From Candidatus Acetothermia bacterium (GTDB taxonomy: Bacteria > Bipolaricaulota > Bipolaricaulia > RBG-16-55-9 > DRXL01): a stretch of DNA of 33,950 nucleotides. Where the stretch lies: contig JAPWVB010000003.1 of assembly GCA_028275205.1 (NCBI GenBank), forward strand, positions 1 to 33,950, written 5' to 3'. Below the pieces are notes generated by a model. The model searched no databases, was not told the DNA's origin, and saw only the letters and a list, made by a program, of their open reading frames with translations. Each line of letters starts with the position of its first letter. Position 1 is the first letter of the stretch. The position numbers were made by a program, and so were the translations under genes. Positions 6,259 through 19,785 of this stretch are shown here, piece by piece.

Positions 6259-6356
6259 ACCCCTCCCCGGCACAGAGAGGGGAGACCTCACCCGTTCCCT
6301 CTCCGTTTACGGAGAGGGTCAGGGAGAGGTAGGGAAGGGGGCTAGGGGGTTAGGTC
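6259..6356. repeat. GC-rich palindromic intergenic repeat, copy A
   Basis: The gap between the flavoprotein and PP-loop genes is almost wholly C-tracts followed by G-tracts. CCCTCTCCG-TTTA-CGGAGAGGG (6297-6318) is a perfect 9-bp hairpin, and the end reads GGGGGCTAGGGGGTTAGGTC. The same tail and a similar hairpin recur at 9320-9357, and a shorter version at 7151-7176. It looks like a REP-like dispersed element and may act as terminator or mRNA stabiliser. Confidence 0.75.
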
Positions 6357-18312: not shown

Positions 18313-19401
18313 ATGCGTCGAGTCTTGAGTGTCTCTGAGGGCGAAGCGGGCTCTCGGCTTGACCAATGGCTCTTAGCGCGCTTGAGCGAGCCCACACTGA
18401 CGCGCTCGCGCTTGCAAAAGCTCATACAATCTGGGGCAGTGCAGCTCAATGGCCAGCCCGCTCGAGCGGGGCTGCGCCTGCGCCCACACGATATCGTCAT
18501 CATCGAGCTTCCTGAGGACGCCCCAGAAGAAACCCTCGAACCTGAGCCCTTCACCCTGCCCATACTCTACGAAGACGAGCATATCATCGCGATTGACAAG
18601 CCCGCGGGCATGGTCGTTTACCCCGCGGCAGGACACCCGCGCGGCACGGTGCTTAATCAGCTCATCAGTCATTGTGCTCTGGCGAGCTTCGGGGCGCCCG
18701 CTCGCCCCGGGGTCGTCCATCGCTTGGACGAGGGGACAAGTGGAGTCTTAGTACTTGCTAAGACTGACTTAGCGTATCTGAAGCTCGTCGAGCAGTTCAA
18801 GAATCGCCAGATCGAGAAGATCTATCTCGCTGTAGTACACGGGCGCATCGCCGAAGACGAAGGGCGGATCGAAGGCCCCATCGGGCGCGACCCCGCGCAC
18901 CGCCAACGCATGAGGATAGTCGCTGCGGGAAAGCCGGCGATCACGGAGTTCCGCGTGCTCAAAAGATTCGACGAAGTGACAGTGCTTGAGGTGCGCCCGC
19001 TGACGGGGAGAACTCATCAGATTCGGGTGCACTTGAGCGCGATTGGGCACCCGGTCGTGGGTGACGATCTGTATGGGCCAGGCTTCGCCTGGCCAGACTT
19101 CGTCTGGACTGTGCGCCTTCGCCGGCCAATGGCCGGCGAAGCTGTACGGTCCAGGCGAAGCCTGGGGCTCCATGCGTGGCATATGAAGCTCGCGCACCCG
19201 ATCACGGGAGAGCGCCTAGAGCTTGTGGCTCCCATCCCTGTGGAGTTTCTCCCACTGCTGCAGGGCTATGACGATATACTCACCAAGAGCAGCGTAGGAG
19301 AGCGCGATGCCCCCATAGAGCACAAAGAGAGCGATACGGGAGAGAACCGGGAAGATGGGCTCGAGCAGGAGCCCCACCAGCCCCACGGAGAGCATCGTTG
19401 A
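18313..19401 (+). CDS. RluD-like 23S rRNA pseudouridine synthase with in-frame palindromic insert and C-terminal extension
   Basis: The track ORF starts at 18022 inside the antisense of rimP; the ATG at 18313 (MRRVLSVSEGEAGSRLDQWL) is the sensible start, giving 362 residues. An S4-like RNA-binding domain (1-75, SRLQKLIQSGAVQLNGQPAR) precedes the RluA/RluD catalytic domain with DKPAGMVVYPAAGH and VVHRLDEGTSGVLVLAKT, where the Asp of HRLDEGTSG is catalytic. RPLTGRTHQIRVHLSAIGHP follows. It converts uridines to pseudouridine, probably in 23S rRNA. Between HPVVGDDLYG and LHAWHMKLAHP, where relatives have a short variable loop, lie about 29 residues encoded by a palindromic element (19078-19165). 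The last 50 residues are charged and lie over the antisense 3' end of the phosphatidyltransferase gene. Confidence 0.9.
   Translation: MRRVLSVSEGEAGSRLDQWLLARLSEPTLTRSRLQKLIQSGAVQLNGQPARAGLRLRPHDIVIIELPEDAPEETLEPEPFTLPILYEDEHIIAIDKPAGMVVYPAAGHPRGTVLNQLISHCALASFGAPARPGVVHRLDEGTSGVLVLAKTDLAYLKLVEQFKNRQIEKIYLAVVHGRIAEDEGRIEGPIGRDPAHRQRMRIVAAGKPAITEFRVLKRFDEVTVLEVRPLTGRTHQIRVHLSAIGHPVVGDDLYGPGFAWPDFVWTVRLRRPMAGEAVRSRRSLGLHAWHMKLAHPITGERLELVAPIPVEFLPLLQGYDDILTKSSVGERDAPIEHKESDTGENREDGLEQEPHQPHGEHR
19078..19165. repeat. Nested palindromic element inserted in frame in the rluD-like gene
   Basis: The 88 bp begin with CCAGGCTTCGCCTGG (19078-19092) and end with its reverse complement CCAGGCGAAGCCTGG (19151-19165); each is itself a 6-bp hairpin. 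Next to the first is CCAGACTTCGTCTGG (19093-19107), differing by a G-C to A-T change on both sides of the stem. The centre is a perfect 11-bp hairpin CTTCGCCGGCC-AAT-GGCCGGCGAAG (19117-19141), inside a longer imperfect palindrome from about 19104 to 19154. It is translated without stop or frame change. It resembles in concept the palindromic elements found inside Rickettsia and cyanobacterial genes. Confidence 0.85.
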
Positions 19402-19785
19402 GGAAGCTTTCCCCAAGGCGCGCGCCTCGATGACGAGCCATCGAGAACTCTGCCAGCGCAGCCACAGAGCTCCCAAGACTAACACGATGGGAGGCACAGC
19501 AAACGCTATCAAGGCCCACCACGGAAGACGCCCCTCAACAGTAAGAGCGACAAAGAGACTGAGAAAGAGCATCTTGTCGGCTACGGGGTCTAGGAGCTTT
19601 CCTAGGGCAGTGATCTGGCGCTGGGAGCGCGCCAGCGCTCCATCAACGAGATCACTCGCCAGCACCAGGGCGAGCACGGTGTAAAAGAGCCACAACGGGC
19701 CCCAGAAGAAGAGCAGTATCAAGATGGGGATAGCGAGAATTCGTGAGAGTGTAATAGCGTTGGGCAGGGCCAAGACGTCCTTCAT
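19216..19785 (-). CDS. pgsA: CDP-alcohol phosphatidyltransferase (phosphatidylglycerophosphate synthase-like)
   Basis: The 189-residue integral membrane protein starts MKDVLALPNAITLSRILAIP, typical of PgsA (NIPNxLTxxR). It carries the family signature D-x2-DG-x2-AR-x8-G-x3-D-x3-D as DLVDGALARSQRQITALGKL then LDPVADK. About six membrane helices follow. The enzyme joins CDP-diacylglycerol to glycerol-3-phosphate, the first step to phosphatidylglycerol. Other CDP-alcohol transferases share the motif, so the exact alcohol is inferred. Its ATG overlaps the stop of the HD-domain gene (ATGA). Its last 186 bases overlap the 3' end of the rluD-like gene on the opposite strand. Confidence 0.85.
   Translation of the reverse strand: MKDVLALPNAITLSRILAIPILILLFFWGPLWLFYTVLALVLASDLVDGALARSQRQITALGKLLDPVADKMLFLSLFVALTVEGRLPWWALIAFAVPPIVLVLGALWLRWQSSRWLVIEARALGKASSTMLSVGLVGLLLEPIFPVLSRIALFVLYGGIALSYAALGEYIVIALQQWEKLHRDGSHKL

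Follow-up and report, generated by a model that had tools for sequence, protein, structure and literature searches.

In Rickettsia, the palindromic elements known as RPE are dispersed palindromes that lie in frame in many conserved protein genes and also in the RNase P RNA gene (PMC2229807); their placement is solvent-exposed and they recur at the same loci in related species (PMC3767692). The intragenic GTAG/CGTC REPs, known in other phyla, are short hairpin repeats, often arranged as inverted pairs, some of which are inside genes, including pseudouridine synthase genes (PMC3733652). Mitochondrial repetitive or double-hairpin elements are found in intergenic DNA, in RNA genes, and occasionally in protein genes without causing a frameshift (PMC2800124).

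The window of this study is the whole stretch of DNA analysed, 33,950 nucleotides of contig C7 from a Candidatus Acetothermia assembly (1.19 Mb, 135 contigs, 61% complete; labelled G000). It contains an RluD-like gene with an 88-bp palindromic insert, and the features of the gene and insert are:

18313-19401, plus strand: gene for an RluD-like 23S rRNA pseudouridine synthase of 362 aa (S4 and PseudoU_synth_2 domains), host of the insert; from translation, Pfam and a structural relative
19078-19092, unstranded: extra G-type end hairpin CCAGGCTTCGCCTGG, a tandem end module outside the canonical unit; from sequence and from a like duplication elsewhere
19093-19165, plus strand: canonical 73-bp element, A end to G end; from the alignment of 35 distinct full units and a covariance model
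19093-19107, unstranded: A-type end hairpin CCAGACTTCGTCTGG, with a 6-bp stem and a 3-nt loop; from sequence and alignment
19108-19150, unstranded: linkers ACTGTGCGCC and GCTGTACGGT with the central long stem TTCGCCGGCC-AAT-GGCCGGCGAA; from the fold and the central palindrome classes in the alignment
19151-19165, unstranded: G-type end hairpin CCAGGCGAAGCCTGG; from sequence, 15-mer search and alignment

The coordinates and parts given by the initial annotation were all found in the sequence: two hairpin-forming 15-mers that are perfect inverted copies of each other (19078-19092 and 19151-19165), another hairpin 15-mer directly after the first (19093-19107), and the palindrome in the centre. 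The palindromic element it described as an 88-bp unit is real, but the repeating unit is the 73 bp at 19093-19165 (covariance model match of 81.3 bits, E 7.8e-17); the 15 bp before it form an additional end hairpin. Duplication of an end hairpin outside the A end is also seen in other copies (e.g., loci L007 and L008). The insert has a predicted folding energy of -71.4 kcal/mol, compared to -34.3 +/- 3.3 in shuffles (z = -11.4). In the same genome CCAGGCTTCGCCTGG occurs 107 times with at most two mismatches, compared to 2 for the reversed control, and CCAGACTTCGTCTGG occurs 47 times with at most one mismatch, compared to 0. The fold and these counts rule out a chance palindrome; a purely local tandem event is ruled out by an anatomy that is common to the whole family.

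The search for further copies that had been proposed gave about 59 clusters here and more in eight relatives. With both strands counted, blastn of the element against its own genome gives 87 matches; these, the 15-mer searches, and the fetched stretches together resolve to the clusters, in a genome that is incomplete. From this genome and its relatives, 38 full units (35 distinct) were aligned end to end. The order is an A-type end (CCAGACTTCGTCTGG), the linker ACTGT, a central palindrome of several sequence classes, a linker ending in GGT, and a G-type end (CCAGGCGAAGCCTGG), so that a long central hairpin stands between two small ones. Units are about 67-74 bp overall, with 69 bp in 25 of the 38 and 73 bp in 10. 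The paired G-C to A-T change reported between the tandem 15-mers is also real; it is, however, a difference between left (A) and right (G) ends across the family, present in 37 of the 38 full copies, and not a local change. Since each end pairs perfectly with itself and imperfectly with the other, the local hairpin is apparently the conserved unit. Stems among 105 A ends include CCAGGC (39), CAAGC (29), CACGC (9), and CCAGAC (3), each self-complementary and in the same end slot, and some copies have CAAGC-GAA-GCTTG or CACGC-GCA-GCGTG as their second end, about as far from the A end as usual. This occupation of one slot by several self-complementary sequences strengthens the earlier suggestion of selection on hairpin structure.

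The family is confined to a narrow set of genomes. Among 100 relatives, the degenerate 15-mer is frequent in G000-G005, which form one genus, has fewer copies in G007-G009, a second genus of the same family, and elsewhere gives only single matches. The covariance model gives 12-113 rows per genome in these nine (both strands counted) and six weak matches each in G010 and G014, from another family of the order, while neither G006 nor the remaining genomes searched have a match. Exact 20-mer matches in 85,462 species genomes are limited to 54 loci, all in Candidatus Bipolaricaulota/Acetothermia MAGs and spread over several of them. Carriage by viruses, phages, or plasmids was rejected, as viral contigs, phages, and plasmids gave no match. 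A repeat specific to this clade, one family of the Bipolaricaulota, is the best explanation of the element. A search of the open-access literature gave no relevant account of palindromic or inverted repeats in Bipolaricaulota/Acetothermia.

The host protein matches PF00849 (E 2.5e-33) and PF01479, and its closest solved relative is E. coli RluD (1v9f, E 6.8e-54). Between GD-x-x-YG and LHAW the element accounts for nearly all of the 30 residues of the window protein, while orthologues from the same genus have 9-20. The E. coli loop at this site is likewise longer, and the site is therefore a variable loop, as the initial annotation had claimed along with an unbroken frame; the window gene is open. 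Alignment with close RluD proteins shows empty sites or shorter loops in the same-genus orthologues rather than the same residues. The insert is in frame, but the estimate of about 29 added residues needs correction, because the native loop is missing and the 30 residues stand in its place rather than being simply added. An AlphaFold2 model, a check also suggested earlier, keeps the RluD fold; the insert is a loop of low confidence (pLDDT about 50-58), and the residues on either side of it are modelled confidently. The effect of the element on RluD is presumably near-neutral. In a distant relative (G057, locus L078), RluD has another long insertion of about 36 aa in the same loop, not recognisable as this element. 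A convergent ORF on the minus strand (19216-19785) overlaps the hydrophilic C-terminal tail of the window gene by about 185 bp.

Pfam-supported genes of this genome contain 15 in-frame copies, the window copy included, and a few more copies lie at gene ends. The in-frame hosts include RluD, an IleRS-like tRNA synthetase, aconitase, HypF, MutL, DXR, AsnB, lipoyl ligase, a transpeptidase PBP, and triosephosphate isomerase (TIM), and the copies use several reading frames and both orientations. Orthologues of RluD, TIM, AsnB, and PBP in relatives have empty or different loops. In TIM, where G001 has the eight-residue native loop AGLALSEN, G000 has 27 residues instead; in DXR, the element is at one linker in G000, and element-like peptides are at that place in G001, G003, and G004. 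Counting coding and non-coding copies together, so that the property is one of the family as sampled, 22 of the 35 distinct units are free of stops in all six frames and 12 more in five, with a mean of 0.4 stops; shuffles of equal composition average 3.0-4.1 stops, and the share of them without a stop in any frame is 0.35-1% with dinucleotide and 1-2.5% with mononucleotide shuffling. Judged from these sequences, the family appears unusually well fitted to translation in any reading frame, and the element is presumably translated without excision from host mRNAs.

Copies are also found at genes for stable RNAs. Among element-bearing relatives that gave a match, from two genera, the P3 arm of the RNase P RNA always consists of the element or a variant; in G006 and G010-G013 this arm is short or unrelated. 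In the window's own genome, 6 of 32 tRNAs have the strict 15-mer flush at the 3' end, compared to 0.03 expected, and two more flush copies are among the blastn matches (C37:3693 and C37:13370). Fetched loci, a sample biased to elements, contain 72 distinct tRNA contexts, with an element end 3' of the tRNA in 26 and 5' in 10. Elements often fill a tRNA spacer completely, from CCA to position +1 of the next tRNA or RNA (tRNA-Asp/Phe, Arg/Leu, Gly/Leu, and Ser/SRP RNA), and different species have elements of differing internal sequence in the same place. The joint may be before, within, or after the CCA, and is thus flush rather than base-exact. The full replacement of native spacers and loops and the positions at tRNAs and RNase P RNA are the surprising parts of this distribution. 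Candidate molybdenum/tungsten (L015, 355-520) and fluoride (L031, 1997-2064) riboswitches, both Rfam gathering matches, are near element copies.

The likeness to the Rickettsia elements proposed by the initial annotation is one of behaviour, with dispersed in-frame copies and empty sites. Both kinds of element are in frame in conserved protein genes and in RNase P RNA; however, RPE are 105-146 bp rather than 67-74 bp, and the Bipolaricaulota element differs in that each end is a hairpin, many units can be read through in all six frames, tRNA spacers are filled flush, and the native loop is replaced. Its hosts belong to another phylum and not to the Rickettsiales. Compared to the GTAG/CGTC REPs, it is a longer unit of three hairpins, the window copy has no unpaired GTAG/CGTC tag, and the RAYT transposase is mostly absent. 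The canonical unit has no unpaired CGTC tag, and some copies with a CAAGC end read CGTCAAGCGAAGCTTG. The mitochondrial double-hairpin elements are alike as hairpin repeats in both RNA and protein genes, but are organellar and unrelated in sequence. Given the host clade, the lack of tags, and the lack of RAYT, the element is therefore outside the RPE and REP families as defined; the family is new in its lineage and apparently independent. A stop-poor family in another phylum makes the adaptation of selfish DNA to coding sequence testable, and related genomes in which the same gene does or does not carry the element serve as natural controls. From the copies at tRNAs and RNase P RNA one may ask whether RNA processing fixes the boundaries or whether these simply follow what is dispensable to the cell.

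With a probability of about 0.78, the insert is a copy of a non-autonomous, clade-specific, RPE-like selfish palindromic repeat that is tolerated and translated in variable loops. Established parts of this explanation are the dispersal of the copies and their hairpin structure, their in-frame positions, the frequent openness of all six frames, the empty sites in relatives, and the replacement of loops and spacers; we infer mobility and selfish maintenance. Copies would spread to new sites, moved by a factor that recognises hairpins, probably as single-stranded DNA; recognition of the hairpin is suggested by the persistence of hairpins through changes in sequence. With almost no stops in any frame, units in dispensable protein loops could be read through as 23-30 extra residues, and such copies would survive. 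Survival would be limited to places where the host sequence tolerates a stop-free insert, and the same filter may leave the RNase P P3 and tRNA-spacer copies. No transposase is linked to the element (Y1_Tnp, the RAYT domain, was searched in its own genome and in relatives), and 32 of 38 copies have no target-site duplication where the null gives 32.1, so there is no excess; it is therefore the distribution of copies that points to transposition. A clean insertion does not predict the loss of native loop residues at occupied sites, and the absent native loops and spacers therefore point either to deletion of target DNA on insertion or to a later loss of dispensable residues.

The positions at RNA genes could be read the other way, with the repeat being mainly a functional processing or spacing element of stable-RNA operons and the copies in protein genes being spill-over. 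The elements running flush from CCA to the next +1 in the same place across species, the excess of flush tRNAs in this genome, and a P3 arm shared by both element-bearing genera where matched, but not by outgroups, are all consistent with such a role. Most copies in this genome are not beside RNA genes, however, and at least 15 are in protein genes, while most tRNAs lack the element and flushness could also reflect the loss of all dispensable native spacer; the reading is unlikely. Spread at the RNA level, in which a spacer released by tRNA end processing (its ends flush with the CCA and with the site cut by RNase P) returns to DNA as a copy and replaces whole dispensable segments, would account for tRNA spacers, the P3 arm, and protein loops in common, but we consider it improbable.

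Hypotheses that name a known kind of mobile DNA fit less well than the selfish repeat. Two inverted hairpins per unit, conservation at the level of the hairpin, and the lack of target-site duplication would suit a REPIN-type element mobilised in trans by a RAYT (Y1 HuH) transposase, yet Y1_Tnp is absent from G000, G001, G003-G005, and G007-G009, several of them 87-93% complete, in a search that was positive in five control genomes; G002 has one weak partial match. There is also no GTAG or CTAC in 19078-19165, and CGTC is only within the paired stem of the A end. Mobilisation by RAYT was rejected on its absence from most element-bearing genomes, and we give it very little credence. It is equally hard to credit a MITE derived from a DDE transposon and recognised by its 15-bp terminal inverted repeats: the element is short and multicopy with such termini, but the 38 copies show no excess of target-site duplication, and end stems that are swapped, and that each form a perfect hairpin but pair with mismatches to one another, indicate that self-hairpins, not inverted repeats, are kept. 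The very stable hairpin inside an mRNA might instead be removed after transcription, like an intron, or bypassed in translation. Removal would leave shortened proteins, as the native loop is gone from the DNA in RluD and in TIM (8 residues), which disfavours intron-like excision, and excision does not require units open in most or all frames; this is the most far-fetched of the readings considered.

In the gap between ORFs at 6285-6330 of the window there is an imperfect 22-bp inverted repeat (ACCTCACCCGTTCCCTCTCCGT / ACGGAGAGGGTCAGGGAGAGGT), which appears to belong to a second palindromic family seen in relatives (CCCTCACCCC...GGGGTGAGGG). A second, unrelated palindromic family is read in frame in TIM of G003, G005, and G007 (L157, L156, and L158), in the same loop as the CCAG element of G000, and similar peptides are present in DXR of G005 (L191) and AsnB of G008 (L185). 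Three sequence-identical copies of the element in one MAG (L098, L106, and L122) are nested in the second palindromic repeat, as ccctcaccccgcctgacg[element]gggtgagggcc.
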